Shown piece after piece: positions 334-42,159 of a stretch of 64,000 nucleotides of DNA (its first letter is position 1; the number at the start of each line of letters is the position of its first letter). The notes below the pieces were generated by a model, which did no database searches, was not told where the DNA came from, and worked only from the letters and a program-made list of their open reading frames with translations. The position numbers and the translations under genes were made by a program. The stretch lies in the NCBI GenBank assembly GCA_035235625.1, contig CP141143.1, forward strand, positions 19,699,092-19,763,091, in the 5' to 3' direction. This stretch comes from Saururus chinensis. Lineage: Eukaryota; Streptophyta; Magnoliopsida; Piperales; Saururaceae.

Positions 334-498
334 GGACGCGAATCTGCTGGGGAGGGTATTTCGCTCAGCACCGATTGGCCACCAATGGTTGCTTACCATG
401 TCACAAACGCCAGCAGATCTGGATGGCATTTGGGTTCACGGTTTGGCATTTGGGTTCACGGCGACATGGAACCGAGAATTGGTTCACGTTCACGGAAC
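334..498 (+). repeat. Left terminal inverted repeat of the giant MULE
   Basis: Reads GGACGCGAATCTGCTGGGGA and continues to CACGGAAC. It is matched in reverse complement by 21231-21412. The right copy has an extra stretch of about 16 bases near the motif AGCAGAT. Weaker similarity continues to about 690. An open frame here is also read, in part, at the right end, which is expected from the repeat and is not evidence of a gene. Confidence 0.93.
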
Positions 499-649
499 TA
501 GGATTTGGGTCACGTTTAAATTAATAGACATAGAACCGGAAACCTGGGTTCCTAACCAAGACAGAACCAGGTAATCAAAACCAACCTCTCGTACAATAGA
601 CGCGAATCAAGAAGCTCAGTGATTTTTTCCCGCTTCTGGTACTTGCTCC

Positions 650-1210
650 CTCGGAGTCGACGTCGCCACCGGAACTGCAGCGCCTCCCTCTTGATCGCCA
701 CCGAAACTGTCCACTGCAGAGCCTCCCTTTCGAAGTACCACCGGAACTGTCCCTTGCAACGCCTCCCTTTTGATCGCCATCGGCCCTTGCAGCGCCTCCC
801 TTTTGATCGCCACCGCATAGACTCGACCTTGACCAAATCCCCGCCGGAAAACTAGTCAAAAGAACACAAGAGAGAAGATCGGGAGAAAAAGCCCAAACCT
901 TTTTCCCGCCTGTCATACCTCCTCCCTCCTAATCGACCGTCACCGCTGGAACGGAGGAAGTCGGAGCGCCTCCCTCTTCATCGCCAGTGACCAAACTGCA
1001 GCTGGAAAAGCCTCTATTTTTCTTGCCTTTCACACCTCCTCCATCCCGATCGACCATCACCATCGAAACCGAGGAAGTCGGAGTGCCACCCTCTTGATCA
1101 ACCACGACCACTTAGCTGCCAGAAAAGCCTCCCTTTTTCCTGGCTCTCACACCTCCTCCCTCCTGATTGGCCGGCACTACCGGAACCAAGGAAGTCGCAG
1201 CGGCTCCCAA
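650..1210 (+). repeat. Subterminal tandem repeats near the left end of the MULE
   Basis: Two families are visible. From about 683 to 820 a 33-40 bp unit built on GCCTCCCTTTTGATCGCCAC occurs about four times. From about 916 to 1210 a unit of about 113-120 bp beginning CACCTCCTCC occurs about 2.5 times (starts near 916, 1029 and 1149), each with GAGGAAGTCGGAG or a close variant. Open frames through this tract on both strands look like repeat artefacts. Subterminal repeats are common in MULEs and may bind transposase (inference). Confidence 0.75.
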
Positions 1211-2252
1211 ATAGTAATGCCAAATATCTCTTCATCTGTCTCTTATATCAGTGTTTCTGCATTAATTTTCTCTATCTAGTCCCTGCTTATTCTGTATATG
1301 TTGGTGAAGCATGGTGCGGGGGTCGCCTGTATTTCGTGCTCTGTTTCTATCCGATCTCTCAATTGGTTCATTGCATTTGTGTCTAGTTGAGCAGTAATGT
1401 GCTTTCATTTGGACGTTGTTTTCTTTTGTTCATTTGGGACTTGCTCCATGCTGCCATATTCATTTGTTTTTAATTTTTCTGATTAGGGTCTGTCCAACTT
1501 TTTGGTTATTTTTGTCTGTTGAATAATAGTCACTTTGTTCTTCTATGAATTTCTTTCTTTTTCAGTTTGCCACGCTCAATTTCTCAAAAAAAACCTCTTA
1601 ATGTCTGTTATAAAATTATCTTTTGATGCTCAATTGTTGGTCTATGTTGTGAGCTATTTTGTCAATTATATCTCTTTCTTAGGACGTGAGACTTTGAAAT
1701 CCCTCATATGGTCAGATTGTTCATATTTTGATCGCCATTCACGTCACTTTTAAAGATATTTGCTTAATGCTACAAACTACATACAGGCATCTCATTTGTG
1801 CATTTGCTTGTGAATGTGGCTTACATTCATGATTATTGTTTAGCTTGGTCTTAACTCCTTTTCGTGTTGTTTACCCCTGTGTTTCATCTTTCTCTATGAC
1901 TTTGACTTAAGCTTGACTGCTCTTGTATTTTTAGCATTATCGATGATAATCCTATTATCAATAAATTAAGTATGTGCCACATTTTCCAAGCATTATTGCT
2001 AAAACCATGTTAGCATTATTAGTAAATTGTTATCGTATAATTGCTAAGAATTTATAACATGATTTGTATAATGATTTGGCTTTATTGTTATAACGTTTGA
2101 ACAAGCTTATTGATGTATGTTTCACCAACTATTTTAATTTTCTTTTTTCATTTTAAAAGATTCATAAGTAAAAATGATTCTTGAATTGAGATCTCTACTC
2201 ATAAGATATTGAATTATATGGCTATGTTATTCATGGGGTATACTAAATACTT
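1211..2252. other. Non-coding stretch inside the MULE
   Basis: T-rich sequence without a convincing reading frame or recognisable repeat. It lies just upstream of the Ulp1-type gene and probably includes its promoter and 5' leader, but no clear TATA element could be assigned. Confidence 0.5.
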
Positions 2253-2287
2253 TTGTTAAACATCTATATACCTTCGTACTCATCCAT

Positions 2288-5200
2288 GGATATCTATGCA
2301 GAAGTTTTTGAAATGAAGAAGAGGAGCTCAGGCCTTGCAGTAGGGTCAAAAAATATTAGGCGTGAGTCACTAAAAGTCCCTTGCACCCCCATGGGACTAG
2401 CAAAGTCAATCAACATTCTCTCTACCATACCGCAGGTGAAGAACTTGGTTGGCCAGACCCCATTCATCAAATTGCTTGATGCCATAACCATTATTTGTCA
2501 GGCATCACTGTTTGAAGTTATTTTGGGTTATTGGTCTGAGGCTCAACCTGGGGTCACATTCAGGGGACACAGAGTGGACTTTACTATGGAGGATGTGGCC
2601 CTCATCACTAGCCTAAAAATGGGGGGCGATCGGGTGGTATTCGGCCAAAAACGAGAGAGGGGTGATTTTTGTAAGCGCCATTTTGGGAAGAAGGTTACAA
2701 GGTCTGAAATTGAAAGGAAACTGGACCTGTTACAAGGCAAGACCGATTCTAAATCAATGGAGGATTGTGCAAGATTGATCATCTTGCACATTTTTGTATG
2801 CCTTCTATTTCCTCAGACCAACCATGTGGTAAAGAACGAGTTAGTTGACCTGGTGGAAGACATGGGCAACCTCCATCGGTATGACTGGCCTCAAGCCATT
2901 TATGACTTTTTAGTAAGTTCAGCCTTAGCCCTCCATAGGAAGCTTGTGTTGAAGGAGGAAGGCAAGTTTGAGGGATACGGATCATTGATTGGAGCCGCAT
3001 TTGTCCTACAGGTATTTTATACTTTGTACATATAATTATATTTCATTTTTATGTGGGAGCTACAAGATACTAATGCATATCTATTATATGTCATAGGTGT
3101 GGGTGTTTGAGCATTTTCGGATGTTCATATCCCCTATGCTGGAGAAGCTACCCCGATTTTGCAAATGGCCAAATTGTGGCCTTGTGAAGGGTGAAAAAGA
3201 GGGAACACACCATAGGTCGGTGGGTAGATATGCACAATTGTTCAAATATGTGAGACCACAAGAGGTAATTGCAACAAGATAATATATATAATGAATTATT
3301 TGAGAGTTTTTTAAGAGTTGTTCAACTCTTAATTTTATTGAAAGTTGGATGTTAAATCATTGTGCATATGTTAACTGCAGGTTTTATCTGTGTTGGTTCC
3401 TCGCCGCAAATGAGTCATATCTATTTGAAGGGGCAAGAAAAACTTCAAAGAAAAGGAAGGTAGGAGTCGAGGCTCTGGAGCAGGGGAAGGATAGTGGGGG
3501 AGGGCTATTGGTCTTGAAGTCCTCCATAGAGAATATGTCCTCTGCACTTGGAGTTGTGCAGAGTGCCATGTATATATTGCATGAGGAGGGTTACCATACA
3601 GGCCAGCTATATGGTGTAATTGACACCATTTCAGAAAACTTTTCAAAATTTAAAAGCATGGCCAATCATTTGGTGAAGAGGCCACTGAAGAAGATGAGGC
3701 ATGCCTCACCCCCTAGAGCTGGGAACAAGGAGGAAGGTGGTGAAGCAGCTAATGAAGATGACGGAGAGGAGAGTGATGATGTGGGAGGTGAGGGTGTGGA
3801 GGGGGAAGAGGCGGAGGAAGAGGAAGGAGATGAGGAAGAGGGGGGAGAGGAAGTAGAGGACAAAGAGGAGGGGGAAAGGAGGGGGAGAAGATGGGGGTGA
3901 GGAGGAAGGAGAGGATGGAGGCGAGGAGGGGGGAGAGAAGGAAGGAGAGGATGGGGCAGAGGAGGGGGGAGATGATGGGGCAGAGGAGGGGGAGATGATG
4001 GGGCAGAGGAGGGGGAGAGAAGGAAGGAGAGGAGGGGGGAGATGATGGGGCAGAGGAGGGGGGAGAGGAGGAAGGAGAGGAGGGGGGAGAGGAGCAAGAG
4101 GTGGGTAAGAGAGAGGAAGGGCCAGATGGGGATGAGAGAAAGAAGGATGAGGAGGGAGATGGATATAAGAATAGGGGTGTTGAGAATGTGGAATGTCCAT
4201 CGAAGAGGCCTGTACGGGTGAAATATAAAACCAAGAAGTATGGGACTCCATTTACACAAGAGACGAAGAGAACAAAGAGGGAGAATAAGGCATTGATTGA
4301 AGACGTGGAGGCTGCAACAATTGTTGTTTCTTCCCAGCCCTCAACCAAGCAAACAGTCCCTACCAGCCTTCGCCAGCCATTGAAGATAAATTTATGCAAT
4401 CCTCTCTCTAATTTGACTAAGTGGGACCAAGATACTATTGAAAAATTCATTAAAGACGGGAGCCACTCCGTGGTGGGGGTTGTTGTCGCTGACAAAGACT
4501 TGATAGATATGTTGAAGGCGGAGTACATATCCTCTAATGTAAGACTACAATTTCTCCCTTTTACATCTTAACTAGTCAATATTGCTTATATATTAAATGT
4601 ATGTTTCGATGCATGTAGGTTATAGATGCATATATGTATATGCTAGAGCAGAGGGCCTCTAGATCAACTGGAAATGCCTTTCCCAAATGCCACTTTGGGA
4701 GCTTTGCCTTGCAATATTATTTCACCCAGGTATGGTCAACAGTATAATGTCTATTTATTGGATTAAGTTAGGTTATGGACTAAGTCAAATCCACACCAAT
4801 TGCAACAGAAGGATGTGGCAAAAGACATAATGGATGACCTGGCGACCACTTGTTTTGGAGTTGATAAAGATTGCCCTGACATTATCTTCTTACCACTATG
4901 TGACAATGCACATTTCCACTTGTTGGTGGTAGATGTGACCGAGGGTGAAGTGAAATGGTTTGATTCAATGCCAGGGTATGGCCATAAGAAAAGGCTTCCG
5001 AATGTGAGGAAATTGGTGAGTAATTGTATGATTAAGTTAAAATGTCTTTTTTTAGTGATGGCTTTTAAACTAATTCAGCTAATATGTCTAGGTTGCAAAC
5101 ATAAGAGTATTACTTGAGGAGCACCTTAAGGATTTTAATCCTAAGAAGTGGAAGATCAATAGTCAAAAGGGACCATATCAAGGCAACGGGGTTGATTGTG

Positions 5201-5423
5201 GGTTCTTCCTCATGCGTACAGTCTATTGCATTAGTTCTGGACTGCCGGTTGATTTTACTCAGGTATATGGCCTAATTGTAGATATCTATTTTAGTTTCTT
5301 CTTTGTACCTTCATTCAAAGTGAGGGGATGCAATATTAATTGTTTCAACTATTTTAGGAAGATATCTCTCAGCGCTTGAGACTTGTAATGGCTGCAGAGA
5401 TATTGAGAGGCTATGTTGAATGA
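2288..5423 (+). CDS. Ulp1-type (C48) cysteine protease gene carried by the MULE, frame damaged
   Basis: Seven exons can be read: 2288-3011 (or from ATG 2253), 3097-3264, 3381-4538, 4619-4729, 4809-5015, 5092-5262 and 5358-5423. All have GT-AG borders, and every exon I measured after the first keeps frame. The N-terminal part resembles the plant mobile region found before Ulp1 domains in MULE and Ulp1 proteins (DUF1985-like; family call from memory). A Glu-rich acidic tract follows. The C-terminal peptidase region carries the four hallmark residues: His in AHFHLLVVD, Asp in VKWFDSM, Gln in YQGNGVDCG and Cys in VDCGFF. It belongs to the SUMO-protease superfamily, but activity is unproven. Exon 3 starts and ends in one frame, while its middle (about 3405-3900) is open only in the +1 frame. 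Two compensating frameshifts are therefore needed, one near 3400 and one in the purine-rich tract. It is a damaged or allelic copy. Confidence 0.8.
3760..4095 (+). repeat. Purine-rich low-complexity tract within the Ulp1-type gene
   Basis: Iterated GAGGAGGGGGGAGA and GATGATGGGGCAGAGGAGG units make an acidic Glu/Gly-rich tract. Such tracts slip in replication, and one of the two frame changes of the surrounding exon falls here. Long Pro/Ser-rich open frames on the opposite strand are shadows of this tract. Confidence 0.85.
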
Positions 5424-5878
5424 GTAGGAACCTCTACGTGATGGTAAGAAACTTAAAGTTTATATATTTCTGATGAAAACTATATTGATGGTACATTTTA
5501 GCATTTATTTTGATAGATTTCATCTCTCTTCCAATGGACCATATTAGTTAAAATTGTGACTCATATACGTTAATCTTGTTTAGATAGGAACGTTTTGTTG
5601 TTATACTATCTTTTGATATTACTATATAATATAGCATTGTTTCAGTATCAATCTAAGAAGACAACTATCTTTTTCTGAAATGATTTTGTATTTCTAATCT
5701 TACAGTTTTTGGACGAGAAGTTAAAGGAAACAGTGCACAGGTAACTTCTTTACCTACCTCTAGTTTTTAGCTCATCTTGTTCAGGTTTTCAATGGATGGT
5801 TTATTTGTTGCTTAAGTAGATTGAAATGTCACTTTTAGAGGTTTGATTATGCAAGTATGACCAACTGCTTTAGCAGAT
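5424..5878 (+). other. Spacer between the protease gene and the GEX3-like fragment
   Basis: AT-rich. One small exon-like piece (about 5705-5742) ends at a GTAACT donor and is preceded by TTACAG. It would encode FLDEKLKETVHR. I cannot assign it; it could be a further piece of the captured gene or a terminal exon of the protease locus. Confidence 0.4.
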
Positions 5879-6589
5879 ATATTTGGTCGCAGAAGGCAGA
5901 GTTGTAAAAATTTGGCCTTCAAGAATAGGGTCTGGTGAACTTGTTGTGGAAGTTTTGTTTGGTCCAGAAGCAGCTAGGGGAGGCTCTGGCAAAATTGTTG
6001 GAATATCCATAAGCATTTTGGAGTTTCTCATTATATATCAACGTCAAAAATAGGGGACTCTGCATATAGGCTGCATGGGCATCATCTTTGGAGTTCAGGG
6101 CCTGTACTCCATCGGTTCGGCTATAGCCAAGGCTGCAAGGAGAATGTGACCAATTGTTATTTCACTTCAGCCCCTGTTATAGATCATTGCCAAGGAAGTC
6201 TCCATGTGAGGTCTCATTAAACCTATTTTACATTTCATTCCTCATTTATCTTTCCGCTATTACTGTCCATTTCTTTTTATTTTCACCTTCCCCATCATTT
6301 GAATTTGTAATGTTTTTCACCATTCTCATCCTGTTCAAGCAGATGGTAAATACTAAAGGTCAGCTTTATTCCTTGTCTATTCAGAAGCCTCATTATAACT
6401 GGATACAGGATTTTAGTGAAGTAGACAACATTTTTACAGTGGCTCCAGGAAACAATGGTTGCCTCTTCCTGGCTTTCCCGACGAGATCTATCATAATGGC
6501 ACTTGAAGTTTCATCTGGAAATGTTATTTGGAAACAAAGTGTTGGCCCCTTGAATACACAGGAGAGTTCCCCTGTGGTTGATTCCAATG
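5879..6589 (+). pseudogene. GAMETE EXPRESSED 3-like (PQQ-repeat) gene fragment, frameshifted
   Basis: Two consecutive exon blocks resemble plant GEX3, a membrane-associated PQQ/beta-propeller-like protein of gametes. The first (5879-6206) reads YLVAEGRVVKIW, then GSGKIVGISIS, then in other frames LYINVKNRGL and GHHLWSSGPVLHRFGY...CYFTSAPVIDHC. The second (about 6344-6589) reads GQLYSLSIQKPHYNWIQDFS, then VAPGNNGCLFL, ALEVSSGNVIWKQS and SSPVVDSNG. Block one needs at least two frame changes (about 6020-6065), so it cannot be translated as is. The intron between the blocks (6207-6343) is retained, showing a genomic rather than cDNA copy. Only the 3' half of the gene is present, and it runs into an uncoupling-protein fragment through one intron. 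Family call from memory of GEX3 proteins. Confidence 0.8.
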
Positions 6590-6767
6590 GTAAATGTTTT
6601 TGACATATTATCTCTGTCACAGATTCTGATGTATGGACGGTAATTATTTTCTTGCCATACTCATTTCTACCATTGGCATCTTTATCATTTTGAAATGAGG
6701 CAGTTTTCATTATTTTCTTATGTTTCTTCTGCATTTTTGTGAATGCATTGTTGTGGCCATTGTACAG

Positions 6768-8660
6768 ATTTGCACAATCCCTTTGGATACTGCAAAAGTC
6801 AGTTGCGACTTCGGAAAAAGCTGCTTCAGGAGATGTTGGAGTACCAAAATACAAGGGAATGTTGGGTATTGTTGCGACAATAGCAAGGGAAGAAGGTTTG
6901 GTGGCTCTATGGAAGGGCATTGTACTAAGGTTGCATCGTCAGTGTATTTATGGAGGGCTACGGATTGGGTTATACGAACCAGTATGTCTTGGGTCCTTTC
7001 TCCAGTTGATTGCCTACACATTCAATAGTTATATTGACATTTTTTATGTGTTGATGTCGTGCTGGAATATTGTGCAGGTTAAATCCTTTTATGTTGGTAA
7101 GAATTTTGTTGGCGATGCTCCATTATCCAAAAGGATACTTGCTGCGCTTACAACTGGTGTGTTATGAGTACTAGCAATGTTTTTATTCATGCTTTGGAGC
7201 AACAAAAACAAAATCTTGGCGCAATCTACTAGGTGTAAACTCATTGTTCATTGATTTTCTCAATTTTAATGTCAAACAGGTGCTATAGCAATCATTGTGG
7301 CCAATCCAACAGATCTTGTGAAGGTTCGCCTTCAATCTGATGGGAAGCTTCCTCCTGGTGTACCTAGGCGTTATTCTGGTGCATTAAGTGCTTATTCAAC
7401 AGTTATCAAACATGTACTAACTTTTTCATTCTAATCATGTCATAACAAGTACCAATATAACTAAAAAATTATCCATATTTTAGGAAGGATTTGGAGCCTT
7501 ATGGACTGGAATTGGGCCTAATATTGCCCGAAATGCCATTATTAATGCTGCTGAGATTGCCAGTTATGATCAAGTGAAAGAGGTATAACTTATACAATAT
7601 TTGATCTTTACTCTGTGTTAGCCTAATATATTTCTGCATTCTGCAATTTATCACAATTTTTTAATGTTTTTTTCAATGCAAACAATTCTGAAAATTCTAG
7701 GTTTTACAGATAATGTTATTACGCATCTATTGGATGGTCTAGGAGCAGGGTTCTTTGCAGTGTGTATTGGTTCCACTGTTGATGGGAGACTCAACATACA
7801 AAAATACACTAGACTGCTTCAGCAAGACTTTGAAAAATGACGTATTTCCTATTTTGAGATAGCTTCCTTTCTTTGAAGTTATTTAGTTGGTAGTTGGTAT
7901 TTTCTGTATCATGAAACTGAATAGGATGTGAAATTTGTAACCTATAGCTGCCCTGCTGTTTCTTCAGGGACCTTTGGCATTCTACAAAGTATTTATCCCT
8001 AATTTTGGTCGGCTTGGATCATGGAATGTGATCATGTTTCCGACCTTGGAGTAGGTCAAGTTGAAATTTCCTTTTTTTTTTAAATGTTGCCTATCTATCT
8101 ATATAAGTTGAATTTGTTGTCTTTAGCTACTTAGGATGATATGTTTAGATGGAGTCGGAAATTGATTAAACAATTTTTGCTTTGCGTTTTATTTTTGGTC
8201 AGTTGATCCCCTGAAAGTTTTGCTTTATGGTCATAGCCACTGGATATTGAGTTGGGTTCAAACAGACCCAATAATCTCAATACCTTCTAAAACATTTCTA
8301 GTTAACATTATCAAATCAAGTAGTTAAATTCCCAGTATACTTTCTGAAACATTTCCAGTTAACTTTTATTTGTTGACACTATACCAACACGTCTGAGTAT
8401 GAACTGGGCAATTAGTATTGATTTAATTTGTATGTGAAAAAAGAAATATTCTGAACTTAAAGTCAGATATGGAGATATTTATTTGAGTCTGCGTCATCGT
8501 CATTGTTGATCTCTTAATTAACAATTAATGGTGTTGCTACTTTCACGTTTTTATTCATATTGTTCCTTTTTTGTATGAATAGGCCAAGAAATTCTTCAGA
8601 AGAGATTCAGCTAGTTGTACAAACTGGATTTCCAGTCATTCCGAGGGAAAAATAGATATG
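6768..8660 (+). pseudogene. Mitochondrial uncoupling protein (UCP/PUMP) pseudogene, 5' truncated
   Basis: Exons read in order: 6768-6981, 7078-7156, 7280-7413, 7484-7582, about 7682-7841, 7968-8050 and about 8583 onward. They encode TIPLDTAKV (the carrier PxDxxK signature region), YKGMLGIVATIAREEGL, LRIGLYEP, LTTGAIAIIVANPTDLVKVR, GIGPNIARNAIINAAE, GFTDNVITHLLDGLGAGFF and [16 protein letters not shown]. This is a plant inner-membrane carrier of the uncoupling-protein family. The first exon is missing. Damage seen: a frame change right after TAKV (about 6800-6825); an acceptor that reads GCAA instead of the expected GCAG before 7682; and a gap after GSTVD near 7775 where the third carrier signature should continue, with a frame change. 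Introns are kept, so the copy came from genomic DNA. It directly follows the GEX3-like fragment, giving a chimeric locus. Confidence 0.88.
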
Positions 8661-9689
8661 CAGACAAAAGGTGCTGTGGGAGTTTTTCCTATTGTTGACT
8701 AATAAGTTTTCCCAGTGCTAGAGTGTCCTTTCATTATAAACATTGCCTCAGAGTTTCTGGAATTTGTTGAGCGGAATTTGCAGCAAAGACGTATAATTTA
8801 ATATCTACAGACTAGACCTACTTAATTTGTGCTCTTTTACAGGATAAGTTGTTCAAACATTTTGCCCTTGTGGTAATCGAAACTTCAGGAATCTTTTCCA
8901 CTGCAGTGTTTTGCTGTAAGGGAGCAATTATAAAAGAAATGGGGGTTTTTAATGGCCTAACGGTGTGTAACATCAAAACATGGACGTCTATAGTGATACT
9001 TTCTTTTTGGCCGATTAAAGTCGCATCACGGTTGAGGTCTCTCACAGGTTAATAAAGATCTGGAGAAGGCCACCTCGTACTCTGGTTGCACTGGTTCAAT
9101 CTTCGTCCTTCCGTGAATTCTTTCTAATCATATTGATCGATACGGGATAATTGATTAATGCGCCATTGCCCAATGAATTAGCGTTGCTTGTCAAAGATTA
9201 GTGTACAAAAAATTGTAAGTGGCTTATCTATCTACTTTGGACGTGCCTTTTTTAAAATTCTCACTTGTTCGGCAAATTTGGTTCAAACTGATCTCCGGTT
9301 TAAATTCTACAAACTTATAAACGACTTTGCCACAAGCTTAAATCTTTGCAAATCATGTACATCATTTCTCATTTCTTTCGGCCTTCTCTGTTCCTTTATC
9401 TCCAATTTAATTGATATTTATAAATTGTATTACTGTATACAGCAGGTTGAGTAACGATAGGAATTTTTATTTTTACCTATGTACCCATATTTTTCACCTT
9501 TATCCATCTTTAAAACTTAATTTAACTATTGAATTTTTTTTATTGAACTAGAAAATATTTATATTTGTTAAACTTTCAAACTTTTTGTATTGTCCTCAAT
9601 TGGTATGTGATATGAACGTATTTTGATAAAATTATTTACGATAATTTTATAAATAATTATCACATGTTTTAACTAAAAATGCTCATATC
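8661..9689. other. AT-rich stretch without a gene
   Basis: Possible 3' flank of the captured uncoupling-protein gene up to about 9050, then AT-rich sequence. Short open frames here show no recognisable protein. Confidence 0.5.
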
Positions 9690-11655
9690 ACGTTTGAAAC
9701 AATATCGCCACAACGTTGCAGCGTTATAGCGGCAATGTTGCTAAATTATCGCTGCAACATCGCAGCAATAACGCTGCAACGTTGCAGCAATATCGCTACA
9801 ACATTGCAGCATTATGACTGTAATATTGCAACATTATTGAGGAACGCGACAATGTTGTAGCAATAACGCTACAACGTTGCAGCGTTATCGCGGCAACATT
9901 GCAATGTTATCGCTGCAACATCGCATCAATAACGCTACAACGTTGCAGCAATATCGCTACAATGTTGCAGCGGTATCACTGCAATGTTGCAACGTTATCG
10001 AGGAACGCTGCAACGTTGTAGCAATAACGCTACAACGTTGCAGCAATATCGCTACAACATTGCAGTGTTATCACTGCAATGTTGCAGCAATATCGCTACA
10101 ACGTTGCAACGTTATAGCGTTACGCGGCTACGTTGTAGCAATAACGCTACAACATTGCAGCATTATCGCTGAAACGTTGCAACGTTATCGCTGCAACATC
10201 GCATCAATAACGCTGCAACGTTGCAACAATATCGCTACAACGTTGCAGCGTTAACACAGCAATGTTGCAACGTTATCGAGGAACGTTGCAACGTTGTAGC
10301 AATAACGCTACAACGTTACAGAGTTATCGCGGCAATGTTGCAACGATATTGCTGCAACGTTGCAGCGTTATTGATGCGATGTTGCAGCGATAATTTTGCA
10401 ACATTGCCCGATAACGCTGCAACATTGTAGCGTTATTGCTACAACGTTGCCGCGTTCCTCGATTACGTTGCAATATTGCAGTCATAACGCTGCAACGTTG
10501 TAGCGATATTGCTGCAACGTTGCAGCGTTATTGATGCGATGTTGTAGCGATAACGTTGCAACGTTGCAGCGATAACGCTGCAACATTGTAGCGTTATTGC
10601 TACAACGTAGCCGCATAACGCTATAACGTTGCAACATTGCAGTGATAACGTTGCAACATTGTAGCGATATTGCTGCAACATTGCAGTGATAACACTGCAA
10701 TGTTGTAGCGATATTGCTGCAACATTGTAGCGATATTGCTGCAATGTTGTAGCGTTATTGATGCGATGTTGCAGCGATAATTTTGCAACGTTGCAGCGAT
10801 AACGCTGCAACATTGTAGCGTTATTGCTACAACGTAGCCGCATAACGCTATAACGTTGCAACATTGCAGTGATAACGTTGCAACATTGTAGCGATATTGC
10901 TGCAACATTGCAGTGATAACACTGCAATGTTGTAGCGATATTGCTGCAACATTGTAGCGATATTGCTGCAATGTTGTAGCGTTATTGATGCGATGTTGCA
11001 GCGATAATTTTGCAACGTTGCCGCGATAACGCTGCAACGTTGTAGCGTTATTGCTACAACGTTGCCGCGTTCCTCGATTACGTTGCAATATTGCAATCAT
11101 AACGCTGCAACGTTGTAGCGATATTGCTGCAACATTGCAGCGTTATTGATGCAATGTTGCAGCGATAACGTTGCAACGTTGCAGCGATAACATTGCAACG
11201 TTACAGCGATAACGCTGCAACATTGTAGCGTTATTGCTACAACATAGCCGCGTAACGCTATAACTTCCAACATTGCAGTCATAACGCTGCAACGTTGTAG
11301 CGATATTGCTGCAACATTGCAGTGATAACACTGCAATGTTGTAGTGATATTGCTGCAACATTGTAGCGATATTGCTGCAACGTTGTAGCGTTATTGATGC
11401 AATGTTGCAGCGATAATTTTGCAACGTTGCCGCGTTCCTCGATTACGTTGCAATATTGCAGTCATAACACTGCAACATTGTAGCGATATTGCTGCAACGT
11501 TGCAGCGTTATTGCTACAATGTTGCCTCGTTCCTCGATAACGTTGTAACATTGCAGCGATAACGCTGCAACGTTGTAGCGATATTGCTGCAATGTTGCAG
11601 CGTTATTGTTGCAATGTTGCAGCGGTAAGGCTGCAATGTTTTAGTGATTTTATAG
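9690..11655. repeat. Array of near-palindromic ~22-bp repeats with internal inversion
   Basis: About 2 kb of units approximating GTTGCAGCGTTATCGCTGCA, with period 21-22 bp. Each unit is almost its own reverse complement. A marker variant reads ATCGAGGAACGC on the left (near 9840, 10000 and 10277) and its reverse complement GCGTTCCTCGAT on the right (near 10452, 11066, 11437 and 11529), so the array flips between about 10290 and 10450. In the right part a higher-order period of about 227 bp is visible, for example GATAACGCTGCAACATTG at 10571 and 10798. All open frames here (repeated LQRYRCNVAA-type peptides) are repeat artefacts. Confidence 0.93.
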
Positions 11656-12416
11656 TAAATATTATCATGCGATTGTTTTATTGTGTCTATAGACGTCACC
11701 ATATATGCAAATTAGGGTTTGATTCCTTGGAAAAGAAAATGAAGTTCCAATTCAAAGGTCTCTCTGGTTCTGTAGATCATTATGTCACCTATTTTTTCTT
11801 CTAATACTCGTGGATCTGTAATAATATTATTTTTTCTATATATAAATTGTTTGAAAGAGCAGACATTTTAAATCTGAGTGAGGACTTCATTCTCCAACTC
11901 GATTAATTATGTCTGTCACTCTAACCTTAAAACAACACCATTGGGATATCAGTCCAGCCAACCACAACTATCAGCTCACAGTTAAGAAACAAAAAACTGT
12001 CGGAAATGTTATTTGTATTGACTCTGTCCAATTTTTAGATTTTTCACTTCTCTGTTTACTGCCTTAGACAATTCAAACTAAATTGTTAAAAAGACAAACT
12101 CACTAAGGGACAATCACGAAAACCTTGATCATGGAAAATCATAGGGGTTCGGCAAGTGATACAACTATGTCCATCTTTATAATGTGAGCATGATAGGTCA
12201 TGCTGGAAATATACCAGTTATATCTATTTTGCTGCTGGGAATAGAGATAATACAAATTACATTTCTTCTTTCAGTTATTTGTCAATAAACATGGGAAGAT
12301 ATCTCAAGATTTCCCGTTCCATACGGTCAAATCATCCTCTAGCTGCAAATTCTCATTAAGTAGATGTGTCAATACCGTAACAAACATAAACCCTTCATTA
12401 TTACCCTTCTATCTGT
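11656..12416. other. Spacer after the repeat array
   Basis: AT-rich. It may contain decayed downstream exons of the CABIN1-like fragment on the reverse strand (a weak candidate near 12290-12345), but nothing that can be supported with confidence. Confidence 0.4.
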
Positions 12417-15400
12417 TCTAAGAGATGTGTATGCCCGATCAAGAGTGCAGAAGTCCCTGGTCTTCTCTAGGAGGCTCATATAAAGCAAGGTGTATTTACG
12501 GATGCAAGTGATGAATTTTCGCGAACTTTCAGATAAACTGACTTCCAGAAACTTGTTGTTTCCACCAAGACCTAGAGTTTTCCGCCTGTTTATTAAAAAA
12601 AAATTAGTGAAATATTTTCCTTTATCACCGAAATAGAAAGACAGAAGCTATCAATATGGTTTTACTCTTACCTGCCCTTTCTAACCATCCCATCAATCTC
12701 CCACATATTAATTGTAAATGAAGAACGAGAAGACCTGAAGCAGAATGAGAGTTCATCCTTAGCATGTTCAAAGTCCCCAGTTTGACGACTTCTGTAAAGG
12801 CCTTGAGCCATCTTATACCTCGCATTATGGAAATGTTTGAGCTCACCTTCCACACAAATTTTAAGAGCTGAAAGGCAATCCTTAAAAAGGATGTTCCAGG
12901 CCTCTTCCAGTTGGGGTAGCTCATCATCCTTTGGTTTCTTCTTAGAGCCAGCTTCTATATTGTTTTTAGCAGTCATACGAAAATGAAGCTCCTCATCACT
13001 CCAACCAAATATCTTCAATATAGTATCCTTAGTTGACTAACTGAAGGAATGTGCAGTAACAACCTGATAAGGCAACAGTTATGTCAAAAATGAATATCAA
13101 TATTTCAAGTTTAGCAGACACAAACACAATAGCATTCACTGACATTTCTCTCAGACTTGAGGAAATGTTAGTTTCATTCACAGCTCCACCGTTACCAATA
13201 TTTTTGTTGACGAATTCAGTAACTTAGCTAATGGTTTTTCTTGACATTATTGGAGATCCATCCCAACATTCTATAGGCAATCTATATCATCCAACATAAA
13301 AAAATCTCAAATACGTGATGTATAAGACACCCTTTCTCATCAAGTCACGTTGTTAGGATGATGAGCATATCTGTCAATATAAATTATATGCATTGCCAGT
13401 TTTAACACCATTCAGGCTAGAATAAGAAACCACTAGGAGTACTAGGCATTCAAACTGAAGACCTTGTGAAGGTGCCTCTTATTGTTGTTCAGCCAAGGCG
13501 CAATTCCAGTTGGTCTAACTAAAATTATGAAAGATGGTGCTAAAAATAAAAACTAAAATATTGACAAAACATCATTTGCATATAGTATAAAAGTAGGTAC
13601 AATAGATTACTCAAAATAGGGGAAAAGAAATTAATGAGCTTTTGTCTTTCTCAACTAATTACCACCTGTAGTGAAGATCCAACAAATAAAACATTGACAA
13701 AAGGCTCTGAGAAAACTAGCCTGAAGGGCATCCATATTATGCTTTCCACCTTTATAAAGTAACTTCAAACGCGAAGCATGCATCCTATAAACAGTATCTA
13801 CAGCAGAATTAATCAAGTTGAGAGCTTTCTGGTAATAAGAAAATGCCTTTGCAGCTGGGTACTTCATCTTTTCACAAAGTTTACCCAAGTAGAAAGCATG
13901 CAGCCAGTCAGGCCTACAGTATAAAAAGATGCAAAAAAATTAACATTCCACTTTGTTGATCAGGGACATGCAAAGGAATACAAGTCAGGATTGGCAATAG
14001 CATACTTGTACTCTAAAGCTTTCTTGAAGTGTTTCATATAATTTTGGCACAGAAACATCCAGACTTCATTCTTTTTTGGTACAACAGTTCTTTGCTCATA
14101 AAATAGAACAACATTCTGAAGGCTGTCATAATACACTAGCGCCAGTAACTCGTGCATCTAACTCTGAATATGATCACATTAAGAAATCAGATGGGATTAT
14201 AAGCAAATGAAACAACAATCAACAAAAATAAATTACTAAGGTTGTAAAACGTACCTTCTGAGAAGGAGTTGTTGCTACAACCACACTCATTAATGAACAT
14301 CTCCTAGCCCTTCTTCAACTAACTTCAACTCTCTGAGGTAAAGAATGATGCTTTCTCCATTCCACAACATTTATGTGCTTGCTGCCATCATTCAGCAGCA
14401 AATCTACCTCCTGAATAAGAATGCCTCATTATGTCATAGTTGAAAAATTATAAAATCATTTGGCAATAATGTCAGCAAAGACAATCGAATTGATGCTTAT
14501 CTGAACACAAAATCGCTTACCTCATCATAGATAGTTGCAAGCCGCTTCCAGCTGTCAAAGCGCAAGGGGTTGTATATTAAATCATATTTCAATAGGTTTA
14601 CATGTTGCTCAACAAAATCTTCACCTTCTTTAGTAAGTACAAAACCAGTCCATTTATCTGTTGCATTAATTTCTTCACCATGAGCTAGAAAGTAGTAAAG
14701 GTTCTTTGTCTGACTCCGTATCTTGCTCACAACTGCAAATTTGAACACGTCGAGAAAAATGCATTGAATCAATCTGAAATTAAAATTGGACTTCATGTTT
14801 TGAGCTTAATAAACTAATAAAAGTCAGTTTAAAGGCACTTGGTCAGAGAAAATCTTGACTAATTTGAATAAAAAACTTCAATATAAATTTAAATGGAGTT
14901 ATATAAATTGTGTACCTTGTTGCAGCCAACGCTTCACAAATTTTTAGGCCTTTTTTATCAGAAAACACTTTATTTATGATAGATTCTACATTACTTTCTG
15001 TAGCAGCTATATCAGAAAGTTTGTCTTCACATAAATCAGGATCATCTAGAAACTTGTCGATTGGATTTTCTTTAAAAATATCTTCAGGTGGTTGAGGAAA
15101 ATGGCTACGAATAGCTCTTAATATTTTTCGAAGTTTTACCAAGATAGCGGACAAATTGTATGTGATAAATAACACTTGTTTTGAATTCATCGTCTGGTTT
15201 TTTAATGATTTCCAAACATGGAAAAAAACATATTGACATGGTGTTTGTGAGAATGTAGATAACAAGGCCTGCTTTTTTCATGAACTACAAATCCAACATA
15301 AGGTGTTATGATTAAACAAATATTGCAGCCAAATGATAGGATGTTGAAATGAAATAACCAACAAAATGGCATCCAGTACCTTTAGCTGTGATTTTTCAAA

Positions 15401-15426
15401 CTGTTCCAACAGTAATTGTTCCTGAA
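12417..15426 (-). pseudogene. CABIN1-like (HIRA-complex subunit homologue) gene fragment with nonsense codons
   Basis: Reverse-strand exons, in gene order: 15426-15380; about 15270-14912; 14732-14521; 14410-14255; 14163 to about 14006; 13913 to about 13672; about 13010-12676; about 12591-12417. Diagnostic reads are [102 protein letters not shown] and ELSFCFRSSRSSFTINMWEI. These match the plant calcineurin-binding protein cabin-1-like TPR protein, a histone-chaperone complex subunit of well over 1,500 residues. Only a middle portion is here. Two in-frame stops break it: TGA at 14315-14317, where relatives have SRRR, and TAG at 14158-14160, where relatives have Glu. Introns are retained, so this is a genomic capture, placed opposite in strand to the GEX3-UCP block. 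Confidence 0.87.
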
Positions 15427-16941
15427 ACAAGAAAAGTTTATTTCAAGTAATCCCAAAAGGAAAAAAAATCCAATCCAACAACAACAGTCATTTGGATAAA
15501 CTATGATAGTGTTTATATTGCAAAAAAAAAAAAAGTTGCAGTGGTATATCCAGTACATTCTTATCATTTACAGATAACATCCCATCATGCAATTGATGAT
15601 TGCACATAACATAGTTAAACAGAGAAAAACATCAGTACAACATATGAAAAACATAAACATGACAGATCAAAAGACAACAAACACATAAAGAATTACCTGG
15701 AGAAAGGTTCTTGAAGCAATAAGACATCATTTCTCGAACATTAAAAGAACTTTCCAAGCCATGTCCTGATATGGTTTTATTTAAATCCCCCATCACGTCA
15801 TTACTTCACATATTCCAAATCAACCCTCTGTGAGACCATGGGAGTTCCAAACATATACATAGATTGCAAGTTAGATACTATAATATGACACACCGAATCA
15901 ATTGATGGAATATCACCATAAGCATCCACTAAACCTCATTTACTAGAAAAGAAAAGAAGATAAACAAAAAGGGCCTAAGGTAACGGCTATGAAGTTTCAG
16001 AGCAGGTGAAGGCAAGGTGCAGGATATAACACTAAAAAGAATAAGAAATTAATGAGCAAATTAGTCTTCTTTGGTCACTGTTGGGAGAGTAAGTAAAGTG
16101 CTGCTTGATATAGAAAAATAATAGAATATATTATCAAGTGTTAACTGCTGTGAAGTACCAAACAATAATACAAAAATAGAAAGTACGGGCAATATCTGAT
16201 TATTAATATGTATCCTTTTTGCACAAAAAACTACTAAGTTTCTACTTGCATATGTGCAGTGTTTACAAAAAAATTGATTAGTTGCTAAATACATGACTAT
16301 CACAAAAAAATCCCTTATCCTCTCCAAAAAATGCTTCACAAGTATTGTATGTTCAAGCATTCTGCACAATAAGTAGACGAAACTGCAATGTATGTATAAT
16401 GAGGATAGCAATCTTGACAACTCCATCCCCTAACAAAAACAAGCTTCCACCTGCATAAACAAAACTATAGTATGCTCAATCTAAGGATTAAGATTTGATA
16501 AACATATAATATGCATCTTTCAAATACAATATCCAACCTAGTTAGGTTGTTGAGAGCTACTTCGGTCTAAGTAGTGATGCCTACTTCCAATGGTATCTAT
16601 GTTGCTAGTGATCAAATCCCCTTGCATAGGTATAGAAACATCTTGCATCTGTAAACATATTCAGCTGCTAAGATTTGAAGTTATACATATGTATATTAAT
16701 GATGATAACCAAAAGGAAAAGATTAGGAGTTTTACACATAATAAATTCATCATGCTGCAACCATGTTGGTCAGTGATCTTTGCGGGTAATTGGCTATGCA
16801 AAGAAGTCTCCAGTTGGGAATTTATTTGACTAAGTTGAGTTTGCATGTAATCACTTGGAAGTCCATTGGTTAATTCCTACACCATAGAAAAGCGTATTTC
16901 AAACATATGTATTTAGCTAAGGTTAGTGTACAAGTCAATCA
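15427..16941. other. AT-rich interval between the CABIN1-like fragment and the transposase gene
   Basis: No supportable gene. Short reverse-strand frames near 16061-16426 show no family match. Part of this may be intron or flank captured with the CABIN1-like fragment, and the end nearest 16940 should hold 3' sequence of the transposase gene. Confidence 0.45.
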
Positions 16942-19191
16942 CTAAAAACAAAAACATAATACCTCGATACAACAATTGTCCATATTTAATCTGGTGGCCT
17001 TCTTTTTGGGTAGTGTTTTATTCTTCTTAGTCCTCTCAAGACAACTTTTGATCCTAGGACCACCTCGCTTTCCTCCTTGTTTTACTTTGAAACCCTTAAC
17101 TAGTGGGGAAGTTGCACTATCATTAAAATCATCAACTTGTGCTTTGCCACTTCCACTACAAGTTATGTCCACTCCAAAAGATTCATGCTGGCTATCACAA
17201 ACCCTACCATGTGAGATGACATCGGGTTCTTGTGAAAGTACACGATTATTACACTCTCACACTTCCTTCAAAATTGTATCCACATAGTTTAGGGCAATTA
17301 AAGTTGCATCCTCAGTTAGTGTTGCTTCTGTTGTCAAATTTCTAAAAGCCAGACATAAATCATTATTCCTCCTCATGAGAGCAACATTCGGATCTGCTTC
17401 AATTATAGAACCACGATGATCAATAACACTACCGGATTTTGCTTCTTTGGTCCATCTTTTCAGAACATAATGTGGAGGCAACTCATGTATCTTGAAGTGA
17501 TCAAGTACCCTAAATGCATGACAACATAAGATACCCACAAAATTAAACTTCTTACAACTACAATCAACTACATTGGTTGATGGGTCATAATTGACAATGT
17601 GTTTGCAATGTGTTTGATCCATTTCAATTGTACACTCCTTCATCACACCATGATCAACAACCTCTATGACAACACAGTTTAGGCAACCTAAATATTCCTT
17701 TTCGATCATCTTGAATATTACTGGTGTGTAAACACTTGAAGCATACTTCATGATCCGAGAATGAACAGTCACAATTGGCATGCTATGTTTCATCTTAAAT
17801 TCAGCATTCCCTTCTTTACAACGTCTATCAGCCAATAGCCTCTCATAATGATCAAAAAACCTGCATAAATTATGCTCAGATTTCAAGTATCCTCTTAGAA
17901 TACCGTTCATGCTTTCACTCCTCTGTGTGGATTTCATATCACCTATGAACATATGTCGCCCATAAACCATTGCCCATTTCTTTCTTTCTTTGAATAGCCC
18001 TTCTAGCCATTCATTTCCATGAAGTTCATACTTCTCAAGCATATTATCCCATGCTGTGTAAAATTCTTCTTCATCCTCGTAATCATAAATGTGTTTGCTG
18101 AAGTCATGGGCAAATGGCTTCTTGCCATCAATAACTAAATTAAATGAGTGGTTAAGATGCTTATAGGCATTCCTATACATATGCCACACACAAATACGAT
18201 GATGGGTATTTGGTAAAACCGAAGCTATTGCACTAGCCATTGCCTTATCCTGATCAGTTAAAATTGTCTTCGGATGACTACCCATTGTATCTGTGAATGT
18301 CTTGAACAACCACTCAAAACTTTGGATGGTTTCATCATATAATAAAACTGCTCCAAAAATAATGGTCATCTTATTATGATTTAAACCCACAAACAGACCA
18401 AATGGACGACAATATTTGTTGGTCCTATATGTGGTATCAAAGCAAACAACATCTCCAAAATGATGATAATCCATAATCAAAACCGGATCTGCCCAAAAGA
18501 AGTTTGTTATTTTATGATCCTCATCATATTGCATGCTATACTCAAATGAGGAATTTTGAGTACGCCTCCCTTTCAAATACTTGATTATGGCAAAAGCATC
18601 TCCTTGGTCAATTGTTTTTTGGCGCTTCGTACGTAAGTAATTATTATAGTCCTCCTGAATAAAGCCAAGGTTGTCAAACCCCCCCACTTGCTTAGCCATA
18701 AATTCAACTGCTTCTCTTGGGCGTATCCCTGAACCATCTGCTATGTCTGCAGCAACAACTTGAATAATACTCATTCTCCTTTGTGACCTTAGCCTATTAA
18801 CATAGACTTGGTTTGTGACCTCATGATTATGTTTTTCTTCAAAAGTCCGAATACGCCATGCACCATCTTGTTGCAAATTGATGACCAATTGGGCTTCACA
18901 TCCAACTCTTGTTTCTGGTCGAGGATTCTTTGGATTTTCCCGTCTCTTATCAAATAGTCTATGACCTTCTTTGGAGCAACAAAATCTTCTATAACACCGT
19001 TGACCTTTCACATTTGTACGGGAGCTGGCTCGACGAATGCTAAATCCAACATTTCGGGCATACTTATTGTAAAACTCATATGCTTCTTCCTCGGAAGAAA
19101 ATCCCATACCGACTTCTGGCTCCCATATCTCCCTTCTTTTTTCTTCTGTAGGATCACTTGATTTACCGAGGTCCACTTCTAATTCTTCCAT
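16942..19191 (-). CDS. FAR1/FHY3-type MULE transposase gene, one in-frame TGA
   Basis: A single uninterrupted frame from ATG 19191 (an earlier in-frame ATG is at 19206) runs to TGA at 17257-17259, giving about 644-649 residues. A likely 5' leader intron ends TGTGTAG at about 19200. Numbering from the upstream ATG: an N-terminal FAR1 zinc-finger region, residues 40-130, with C71, C76, C103, H126 and H128; a MULE transposase core, 250-435, with candidate DDE residues D257 (VVCFDTTYR), D318 (ILTDQDKAM) and E431 (QRSESMNG); and a SWIM zinc finger, 549-563 (C-S-C then CCH). After the TGA the same frame stays open for about 105 codons to 16942 and encodes a Lys/Arg-rich tail (GKRGGPRIKSCLERTKKNK) like FAR1-family C-termini, then meets a possible donor. 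The TGA may therefore be a recent nonsense mutation that spares all catalytic parts. A domesticated FAR1-family gene is the alternative, but its place inside the inverted termini favours a transposase. Confidence 0.9.
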
Positions 19192-19206
19192 TTGAAGCCT
19201 ACACAA

Positions 19207-19611
19207 TTAAATAAGAATGAATCACATACCATTTCATAAGTATTACTTCGCACAAGGAATAAGGGAAGCCAATAACCAATCATGAAACAAAATCTTTTAA
19301 CCAAATACTCATAAGTCTTCACTCCATTTTATATGCTACAAGGGCCAATACATGTTTCCAACTCATGGGCAACAACGATTCAGCTCAATATCATACTACA
19401 CAAAATGGATCGCACTCAAGTGATAAGAAATTCAGCATGTTATCTCATGTTGAAACCCTAAATTCTTCTTTTTCTCCCCAATGCATTGTAACCACCCACT
19501 TTTTTTTTAATCACATTGCAACGGGTAAAAGATAAATCAAAATGTGCAACTGAAAATAATTTACCTTGCCCAATCACTCAGTGGCCTGCAGAACCCAAGT
19601 GTAACACTGTA
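19207..19611. other. Upstream region of the transposase gene
   Basis: AT-rich leader or intron sequence between the transposase start and the second repeat array. No reading frame of note. An AG acceptor just before the start codon suggests that a 5' untranslated intron begins in or beyond this stretch. Confidence 0.45.
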
Positions 19612-20345
19612 TCACCAGCAATAACGTTGCAACGTTGTAGCATTATCATTGCAATGCTGCAGCGTTATTGTTGTAACATTATAGAAGAACGCAGCAACGT
19701 TGCAACAACGTTGCAGCGTTATTGCTACAACGTTGCTGCATTCCTCGATAACGTTGCAGCGTTGCAGTGATAATGCTGCAACGTTATAGCAATATTGCTA
19801 CAACGTTTCAGCGTCATTGCTGCAATGTTGCAGCGATAATGCTACAATGTTGCTGTGTTCCTCGACAACGTTGCTGCATTCCTCGATAACATTGCAACAA
19901 TAGTGCTGCAACGTTGCAGTGATAATGCTACAACGTTATTGCTGCAACGTTGCGGCATTAATGCGACAACGTTGTGGCGTTAATGCGGCAACATTGCAGC
20001 AATAATGCTACAACATTGCAGCATTGCCCAATAACGTTGCAGCATTGCACCAATAACGCTACAACGTTGCAGTGATAATGCTGCAACGTTGCAGCGTTGC
20101 CCGATAACGTTGCAGTATTGCACCAATAACGCTACAACGTTGCAGTGATAATGCTGCAACGTTGCAGCGTTATTGCTACATTGTTGCAGCGTTTCTCGGT
20201 AATGTTGCAGCAATAACGCTGCAACGTTGCAGCGTTATTGCTGCAACGATGCGGCGTTAATGCTGCACCGTTGCAGCAATAATGCTACAACGTTGCAGCG
20301 TTGCCCGATAATATTGCAACGTTTCACCAAAAACAGAGCAACATA
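19612..20345. repeat. Second array of the near-palindromic ~22-bp repeat
   Basis: Same family as 9690-11655 (CAACGTTGCAGCGTTATTGC and variants). It is shorter, and the marker also occurs in both orientations: GAAGAACGCAGC near 19685, and TTCCTCGATAACG-type near 19740 and 19878. It sits about 0.4 kb upstream of the transposase start and about 1 kb inside the right terminus. Peptides read through it are artefacts. Confidence 0.92.
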
Positions 20346-21230
20346 TACCTGCAGAGATCCTCCTCAATCTTATCCGTATTATCTATTCTAAAAAAAAGGG
20401 GGTATGAACATAGCACGTTACAATCTTTATCTTAATAAAACACAAATTTCTCGCATAAGATTATAAACATAAAATGTTTACCTTTACCACTAACTGCAGT
20501 TCAAAAGTGGTAGAGTTGATATGTTGCAATATGTAGCACAACCCCTGAATTGTCTTCCTCAACAACAACATAAAAGAGCCGCATAATCATATCTATGATT
20601 GCAGTAGCCCTCGTAGTCACTGAATTGTCGTCCTCAACTACAGCAGATTTTTGCAGCCACTAAGAGCATTTTTTGAATCGAAGGGCATCGTCCCTCCTCT
20701 CCTCATTTCATCTGGACTCTATCTCCCTTTCTCCCTGATTGTATTGCGCCTAGCTGTGAGAAGCGGGAAAAGAAGAGTAAGAGGGCGGTCAGTCAGGAGA
20801 TGACACTGGAAGCTGTTGTTTTTCTGAAAGGATTTTTACTCCTTGTCCAGAGGAACCAAGAGCTTTAGGAACAAAGAGGAGGTGGAACAAAGAGAAGACG
20901 AACCAAGAGCTTTAGGAACAAAGACGAGGTGGACAACCAGAGGATGACTCACATTGAGGTGGAGTGCAATGGGTGCCGAAAACAGATGAATGAGTATCTT
21001 CCTCGGCTCTGATCTATGCGATAAGTCCGGTTCCGGCGGCTCTTGTTCATGATCAATCAAAAGGGAGGCACTACGGTGGATGATTCCGGTGGCGACGGTC
21101 AATGAAGAGGAAGTACAAGAGGAGGGAAAAAAGTCCCAGGTTTTTCTGAATTGTTCTGATTTGCGTCTTCTGTACGGGAGGCGGGGTTTCTCTGTTCTGG
21201 TTTCGTCGTTGTTAGAAAACCGGGTTCCCG
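20346..21230. other. Right subterminal region of the MULE
   Basis: Contains a small direct repeat built on CTGAATTGTCGTCCTCAAC (near 20546 and 20622) and, from about 20840 to 21230, sequence weakly related in reverse orientation to the left subterminal region (about 500-690). It could hold the promoter of the reverse-strand transposase gene. No gene is supported. Confidence 0.5.
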
Positions 21231-21412
21231 GTTCCGTGAACGTGAACCAATTCTCGGTTCCATGTCGCCGTGAACCCAAATGCCACGCTGTGAACCCAAA
21301 TGCCGTCCAGATTGAGCGTCTTCGTAAATCTGCTGGCATTTGTGACGTGGTAAGTAACCATTGGTGGCCAATCGGTGCTGAGCGAAATATCCTCCCCAGC
21401 AGATTCGCGTCC
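21231..21412 (-). repeat. Right terminal inverted repeat of the giant MULE
   Basis: Reverse complement starts GGACGCGAATCTGCTGGGGA and follows the left terminus, with four transitions in the first 85 positions and a 16-bp extra segment. It ends with the shared piece GGTTCACGTTCACGGAAC. Confidence 0.93.
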
Positions 21413-21421
21413 CTAACGGGT
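21413..21421. repeat. Target site duplication, right (CTAACGGGT)
   Basis: Exact copy of 325-333. The sequence that follows (CGGTCCAAGGTTGATTTATA) continues the host repeat, as seen at 33472 onward. Confidence 0.95.
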
Positions 21422-23260: not shown

Positions 23261-23451
23261 TTTTTTTTAAATGAAGTCAAAAATAATTTTATGAAAGGCC
23301 CAAGCATGGCATCCCACCAACTTTGATTAGTTACGTAATTATTTCTGAGATAATAATCTCCTCTCTACATTTGTCCATGGAGTCCCCTGGAGCTTGTGCT
23401 TGTCATGGGGACCAGCCTCTCAAGTCCTGGGTTTCGCGTGGCTCTCTCCTC

Positions 23452-23459
23452 TATAAGAA
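23452..23459 (+). promoter_or_regulatory. TATA box of the first inhibitor gene
   Basis: TATAAGAA lies 72 bp before the ATG in a conserved upstream block. The paralogue has CAAAAGAA at the aligned place (about 30788). Confidence 0.65.
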
Positions 23460-23523
23460 GGCAAACAACACTTCAAGATAGACGGGCAGGGAAGATATTG
23501 TGATTCTCTCAAGTGTTAGAAGC

Positions 23524-23915: not shown

Positions 23916-24448
23916 GCTCAGGAGCACTGCTACTTTCTCTCTCTCTCTCGGGGAGAGAAGTGATCAACTGGATAGTAGGTAGATCCATTTTCTTTCTGTA
24001 AGAAAATGGGCCTAGTACTGTGTCATGGGACTTTATTTAGAAATAAATTGTTCCTTACTAGTATGTGACCTTGTTTTTAAGTATTACTGTATTTTGGAGT
24101 CTGTAATAGGATCTCTCTCTCTCTATATATATATATGTCTTAACGACTAGTTTGTCCGGGTGTTCATCTTAGGCTTTGGTGCATGAAATCTGGCTTCTCG
24201 TTTTAATTTTTTTGGCTCACGCATTTGTAGAAAGTATGTGAAGTAGGGATAGGTTACTATCATGGTTTTGTTATATCAATTAGAAGGAACTAGGATTTCT
24301 CTGCATTTGACTTTCCTTTTTCCTATCTTGTGGGGGTAGCACGTGTTTTTTTTAGTTAGTTGGTTATTTTCATGTGTTGTTGCTAATAAAATGCTTATTT
24401 TCTCCTCCCCTTTATCTTACCATACTTGCACGACCACAATAGCTTATC

Positions 24449-42147: not shown

Positions 42148-42159
42148 CGGGCAGCGGAT

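Follow-up and report, generated by a model that had tools for sequence, protein, structure and literature searches.

The stretch analyzed here (the window) comprises 64,000 nucleotides of Saururus chinensis (contig CP141143.1; C4:19699092-19763091) and carries a complete Mutator-like element (MULE) of 21,079 bp with inverted termini at positions 334-21412. The element contains a transposase frame, a putative accessory gene with DUF1985 and Ulp1 domains, parts of three host genes together with two arrays of a short dyad repeat. Very probably it is a member of a giant (20-26 kb) FAR1-type MULE family whose copies are mostly flanked as single units by 9-bp duplications, and which combines its own transposase and DUF1985-Ulp1 with three host-gene copies. 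The features are listed below with window coordinates, strand and type of evidence.

325-333, no strand: left 9-bp target duplication CTAACGGGT (flank comparison and 9-mer scan)
334-21412, no strand: complete 21,079-bp Mutator-like element (termini, duplication, empty site, copies elsewhere)
334-498, plus: 5′ terminal inverted repeat (alignment to 21231-21412)
2247-3032, plus: DUF1985 exon of the accessory gene, PF09331 at 32.9 bits (Pfam)
3804-4120, plus: 12-bp-period repeat coding for acidic residues, in frames of the DUF1985-Ulp1 region (repeat analysis, translation)
4767-5376, plus: Ulp1 (Peptidase C48) pieces in two overlapping frames (Pfam)
5817-6635, plus: captured GEX3 segment, 93.8% identical to donor C4:2252336-2253155 (genome match)
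6644-9668, plus: captured uncoupling-protein (UCP) segment, donor C6:42553436-42556976 (genome match, solved UCPs)
9704-11648, no strand: array 1, 84 units of a 22-bp dyad repeat, blocks in both orientations (dynamic-programming cut)
12364-15142, minus: captured CABIN1 segment, 95.1% identical to donor C2:50378408-50381170, introns kept (genome match)
17260-19206, minus: transposase, 649-codon open frame with FAR1, MULE and SWIM domains (Pfam, homologues)
19623-20331, no strand: array 2 with 28 dyad units, located some 0.4 kb upstream of the transposase frame (dynamic-programming cut)
21231-21412, minus: 3′ terminal inverted repeat (alignment to 334-498)
21413-21421, no strand: right 9-bp target duplication (flank comparison and 9-mer scan)
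33107-33995, plus: paralogous unoccupied repeat with a single CTAACGGGT at 33463-33471 (flank alignment)

Boundaries, target duplication and unoccupied site

An initial annotation of the window had placed inverted termini at 334 and 21412 and identical 9-bp sequences outside them, and both were borne out. All 20 bases of 334-353 are identical to the reverse complement of 21393-21412. The full terminal inverted repeat (TIR) measures about 180 bp (334-498 versus 21231-21412); its two arms agree at 163 of 175 aligned bases, apart from a 17-bp gap, and seven of its 12 substitutions are of the C-T type at CG sites. The exact duplication CTAACGGGT at 325-333 and 21413-21421 is found elsewhere in the window only once, at 33463. 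The whole window was scanned for identical 9-mers flanking 20-bp inverted termini with at least 15 matches. Among the nine pairs obtained, only 325-333/21413-21421 reached 20/20, the other eight being array-internal or AT-rich with 15-18/20, and ten shuffled controls yielded 0-1 pairs each. Equivalent scans with 8-mers and 10-mers gave 423 and 142 pairs, all array-internal among the matches listed (25 each). Together with the MULE transposase domain, the 9-bp duplication and the TIRs are features of the MULE superfamily.

Position 33463-33471 had been taken for the unoccupied site. Alignment of 1-333 plus 21422 onward to 33107-33995 was indeed continuous across the single CTAACGGGT, with 299 of 325 (left) and 486 of 526 (right) positions identical, gaps apart (~92%). 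A 2-bp CT difference between the occupied site and the 33-kb copy lies immediately outside the duplication. However, this copy is a diverged paralogue (~8% different) and not an empty allele. Older repeated segments (23383-26418 versus 30722-33108; 75-83% identical) adjoin the unoccupied repeat. As the flank repeat is younger than these segments, the target of the element lay in a repeated region.

A long terminal repeat retrotransposon nested within the element was ruled out, all long direct-repeat pairs being tandem arrays. A nested TIR element with a 9-bp duplication was likewise ruled out, since none was detected outside the arrays in the 9-mer scan. Nothing in 1-22100 reached an Rfam gathering threshold.

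A family of giant copies

The source genome (516 Mb, 11 contigs) was searched with both element ends. At least 43 matches to the 5′ end and at least 44 to the 3′ end were obtained, 40 of about 200 candidates being scored in each search, and both ends were located for at least 21 related elements. Intact duplications of 9-10 bp flank 15 of them, three have decayed duplications (1-2 mismatches) and three (c3, c5 and c6) have none; in 13 of the 21 the 9-bp duplication is exact. The copy c9 shows an exact 10-bp duplication, or one of 9 bp with the first element base changed. For c10, the 9-bp duplication is exact once the start is shifted outward by 2 bp, the uncorrected start giving 8 mismatches. 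The termini thus recur as paired ends with 9-bp duplications, and the opposite outcome, ends that are unpaired elsewhere, was not observed. Along with the Pfam MULE domain, these related elements support the claim of the initial annotation that 334-21412 is a complete Mutator-like element.

Ten of the 21 elements are giant copies of 20.1-26.3 kb, and the duplication is intact in seven of these ten. That ten copies are 20-26 kb long argues for mobility of the giant form itself. Another seven copies (six of at least 20 kb and one deletion derivative) were 95.9-98.7% identical to the window element in non-array pieces longer than 500 bp; in shorter aligned pieces identity fell to 91%, TIR-to-TIR matches aside. 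c4 is an internal deletion derivative of 7.9 kb, in which 4985 is joined to 18298. At C3:3563201-3589478 and C3:3635923-3657953, at a distance of about 68 kb, two giant copies have near-identical left flanks and no duplication; they probably represent a segmental duplication. The left flanks of c3 and c5, neither of which has a target duplication, are 98.7% identical over 1,500 bp, and because of this near-identity c3 and c5 appear to be one duplicated insertion.

Transposase

The transposase matched PF10551 (E 4.8e-28), PF03101 (E 9e-25) and PF00872 (E 1.1e-4). FAR1 occupies residues 44-131 at the N-terminus and SWIM residues 538-568 at the C-terminus; the SWIM match (E 0.0076) is under the curated cut-off, and its C and H columns are kept. 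An N-terminal FAR1 together with a C-terminal SWIM is the arrangement given for the Jittery-like MULE clade in Table 1 of PMC6446971. The nearest database proteins were FAR1-RELATED SEQUENCE 5-like proteins of Magnolia sinica (50-52% identical). The transposase departs from the conserved residue at four of 76 columns in which at least 95% of 121 rows share one residue. In a quick 121-row tree, which included no Jittery sequence, it was placed on a long branch and in no firm group.

Captured host genes and their probable order

The three host segments sum to 6,623 of 21,079 bp (31%). They are DNA-level copies; their donors lie at three other loci and are 92-95% identical with introns included. 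A search with the GEX3 exon retrieved four proteins, three named GAMETE EXPRESSED 3 and one hypothetical. The GEX3 copy is frameshifted between 6020 and 6026; its donor gene continues beyond the captured part with additional exons on either side, and a second copy at C4:2258 kb is 92.0% identical. The UCP segment, which matches solved UCPs, is 95.3% (6644-7784) and 92.5% (7780-9668) identical to the C6 donor, and 508 donor bases are missing at about 7784. The donor encodes an in-frame carrier across the exons where the element copy is frameshifted. The piece 7622-7837 had no match among solved structures; this exon was assigned to UCP by eye and lies within the DNA match to the donor. The CABIN1 search retrieved 78 proteins, many of them named calcineurin-binding protein 1. 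This segment is 95.1% identical over 2,783 aligned bp to a donor with further exons on both sides, and among solved structures the CABIN1-like piece matched designed TPR proteins only. The region 15150-16940 matched family copies and no recognizable donor in the genome.

The order of capture was taken from genome match lists, in which most relatives were not read end to end; in the CABIN1 search, 40 of 60 candidates were scored. At least six loci (C5:13.53, C1:39.63, C9:0.42, C3:7.93, C7:40.21 and C8:21.68 Mb) matched the GEX3 part and the CABIN1 flank with no match to UCP or CABIN1, the two parts being only about 0.26 kb apart at C8:21.68 Mb. GEX3 and UCP without CABIN1 were present at three loci among the matches listed (C6:17.37, C3:50.97 and C4:43.14 Mb). 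Furthermore, the full GEX3-UCP stretch occurs with at least 97% identity at eight or more loci, and a full or nearly full CABIN1 segment at ten or more. This nested series fits a capture order of GEX3, then UCP, then CABIN1.

At one relative (L036; C6:17366200-17369400), a different 2.5-kb filler occupies the CABIN1 slot, and there is an overlap of 5 bp at the CABIN1 junction. Four open reading frame (ORF) pieces of this filler matched no Pfam family at E <0.1. At no fewer than 13 further loci, the match to the CABIN1 query was confined to its first 2.28-2.32 kb. These loci include L037, a 5,090-bp Pack-MULE with TIRs, the duplication GTGAAACAC, two arrays and a CABIN1 piece, in which no match to the transposase region was found. 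Extra TIR-like pieces just beyond its right end (L037 5385-5587; C1:68378384-68378586) suggest tandem terminal repeats or a second element.

Accessory gene and dyad arrays

The accessory gene is oriented opposite to the transposase. Its Ulp1 part matched PF02902 in two pieces (E 2.2e-4, 21.6 bits with a cut-off of 20.7; E 0.0031, 17.8 bits). In the eight copies compared, the DUF1985 exon is open in seven and the Ulp1 exon in all. The H, D, Q and C residues, which we take to be the Ulp1 motifs, appear to be kept in the translation.

Both arrays consist of units with the dyad consensus AWYGCTGCAACGTTGCAGCRWT; within single units, 7.5 of the 11 positions pair on average. The core CAAYRTTG was counted 68 times in array 1, 19 times in array 2, once in the rest of the element and four times in 43 kb outside. 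A perfect 16-mer of the array has 184 occurrences in the genome, the reversed control none. Fifty of these occurrences were listed, all of them on C1 and C2; the distance to a family match is at most 20 kb for 31 and greater for 19, the latter possibly being older or other family members. Occurrences away from scored family matches include C1:8177158, C1:19285806 and C2:20918516. Array 1 measures 1,265-3,173 bp across the seven copies that have it.

Methylation and selection

C-to-T type changes in array 1 affect 25% of CG, 21% of CHG and 2.4% of CHH cells, with 1.2% for A/T transitions. The same classes in array 2 amount to 29%, 21%, 7% and 4%; in both arrays the repeat units cannot be treated as independent, and just two positions are of the CHH type. 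Outside the arrays, private transitions among eight copies numbered 161/4683 at CG, 193/7858 at CHG, 170/38690 at CHH and 109/81686 at A/T, and the low A/T value suggests that the copies are young. The idea that the arrays had escaped methylation, derived from a high CpG ratio, was dropped after the CG and CHG decay was found. Per-site ratios of nonsynonymous to synonymous variants were 0.32 for Ulp1, 0.53 for GEX3, 0.61 for DUF1985, 0.87 for the transposase, 0.90 for UCP and 1.22 for CABIN1; a selection contrast between the element's own genes and its cargo is suggestive at most.

Other features of the window

A glycine decarboxylase P-protein gene lies on the minus strand at 35869-42378 (GDC-P 40465-42378; GcvP2_C 35869-36441). 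An ORF with an EF-hand motif is located at 55565-55903, and a 242-bp unit forms two tandem copies, 92% alike, at 61301-61775.

Discussion

We propose that the ~180-bp termini are the substrate of the transposase, which mobilizes the element as one unit. The host segments would have been copied in singly, GEX3 before UCP and UCP before CABIN1, probably by template switching during gap repair, and a derivative retaining termini, arrays and the CABIN1 piece would have spread as a 5-kb Pack-MULE. Less certain is the part of the remaining components: DUF1985-Ulp1 may act as a VANC-like anti-silencer, and the 22-bp dyad arrays may be bound by it or by another protein. The pairing of a VANC-like factor with binding sites for itself or another protein has a little less than an even chance in our estimate. 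With somewhat more reserve, we consider that a TIR-bearing FAR1/Jittery-type MULE may have assembled its own VANC-like anti-silencing system, in which the acidic-repeat DUF1985-Ulp1 protein would recognize the internal dyad arrays, and that, so shielded, a 20-kb element could have stacked three host genes and still spread.

Several points weigh against the proposed explanation as a whole. The mobility of the family is read from sequence copies, no transposition event having been observed. Three of ten giant copies lack a duplication; c3 and c5 apparently go back to a single segmental duplication, and c6 is unexplained. All 649 transposase codons are open in only two of eight copies compared (the window element and c6); c3, c5, c7 and c8 have one stop each, and the frame is truncated in c2 and c4. 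Among these young copies, there was no support for purifying selection on the transposase (ratio 0.87; p = 1.0 versus cargo). The lower nonsynonymous load of DUF1985 plus Ulp1 versus cargo was not significant (Fisher p = 0.09). The PF09331 match (E 7.3e-8, 32.9 bits) is just below the Pfam cut-off of 35.1. Moreover, the DUF1985 and Ulp1 pieces lie in separate ORFs and would have to be spliced into one gene. The CG and CHG decay indicates that the copies have been methylated, which counts against a permanent escape. Finally, the anti-silencing function is predicted from domain content and the arrays only.

The arrays could instead be dyad satellites whose transcripts would form long double-stranded RNA that gives rise to small RNAs aiding the host in silencing the family. 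A 727-nt stretch of array 1 has a predicted fold of -574 kcal/mol as compared to -247 (standard deviation 8) for 20 shuffles, array 1 contains long inverted blocks, and the decay at CG and CHG points to methylation inside and outside the arrays. However, the fold is not independent evidence, because any run of dyad units folds in this manner, and the retention of arrays in the 5-kb L037 would not be predicted for a purely harmful satellite. We regard a double-stranded RNA source as doubtful. It is unlikely, too, that the arrays are cis signals, namely subterminal binding sites of the FAR1-type transposase, with DUF1985-Ulp1 as an unrelated passenger. L037 keeps arrays towards both ends while lacking a match to the transposase region, and the position of array 2 close upstream of the transposase frame would suit such a role, but c4 has a clean duplication with array 2 only, the arrays lie 1-10 kb from the ends in full copies, and the DUF1985 and Ulp1 exons have stayed open in nearly all copies. 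That the giant unit is a dead composite, in which host pieces were inserted after landing and never moved as cargo, is highly improbable: most of the copies examined do have an interrupted transposase, and the reading frames of the cargo are disrupted, but the same GEX3-UCP and CABIN1 cargo recurs at the many loci given above and seven of ten giant copies are flanked by an intact duplication of their own, so that cargo shared by independently flanked copies already contradicts it.

A mobile giant family remains our preferred explanation, and its components can be compared with known systems. The initial annotation had called a 21-kb unit unusual for a plant MULE. The element is large, but less exceptional than this suggests, since Table 4 of PMC2528002 gives grapevine families of 17.7, 16.2 and 14.4 kb. 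The large grapevine MULEs include Mutavine-1 (17.7 kb) and the Jittery-like Jitvine-1 and -2 (11.9 and 14.4 kb). The same source reports Ulp1 in MuDR-like and Jittery-like MULEs, in some Jittery-like families downstream of the transposase, as well as transduplicated gene fragments and, where found, 9-bp duplications. As MULEs of 14-18 kb and MULE-borne Ulp1 have been published, neither size nor Ulp1 is new in kind. In contrast to the grapevine elements as presented there, the Saururus family reaches 20-26 kb, has ~180-bp TIRs (none are listed for Jitvine), and combines three separate host genes, dyad arrays, identified donors and a nested capture order.

A putative DUF1985 protein with coding tandem repeats would be shared with the VANDAL and Kaonashi elements (KI-MULEs with VANC or KIU; PMC5735166, PMC10398659, PMC13317346), VANC proteins also containing DUF1985 (PMC5735166); Ulp1 is found in the KIU type, and the capture of Ulp1 and anti-silencing by KIU in VANDALs are covered in a review of 2026 (PMC13317346). 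As described in PMC5735166 and PMC10398659, VANC targets are noncoding tandem repeats that expand and contract, some of them upstream of VANA21; noncoding repeats of variable array length, including one upstream of the transposase, are likewise present here. Unlike these non-TIR elements with no or degenerate TIRs, the Saururus element has ~180-bp TIRs and a FAR1-type transposase, its dyad motif differs from the VANDAL YAGTATTAY, and its anti-silencing activity is a prediction from sequence. With the Pack-MULEs of PMC6431247 it shares host gene fragments between MULE TIRs, here with three donors found. Those Pack-MULEs are mostly 1-2 kb, none exceeding 7 kb, and depend on a transposase in trans, whereas the window element is 21 kb long with its own transposase and is thus not non-autonomous; L037, which is non-autonomous, is an ordinary Pack-MULE of 5 kb. 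We found no report of this combination of features in the open-licence literature, in which absence is weak evidence.

The contents of the element, which lay out of sight of the initial annotation, are of more interest than its length. According to a review of giant transposons, DNA transposition loses efficacy once the cargo exceeds ~6 kb, and no Pack-MULE in the original rice study was longer than 7 kb (PMC6431247); in the present genome, a 20-kb unit with three host-gene segments has been inserted again and again. From the nested relatives and the donor genes, the order and junctions of gene capture can be reconstructed. Furthermore, the dyad arrays and DUF1985-Ulp1 form a candidate anti-silencing pair that lies outside the VANDALs and can be tested directly. 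If the pair does act in this way, the anti-silencing strategy of the non-TIR VANDALs would have a second, structurally different carrier.

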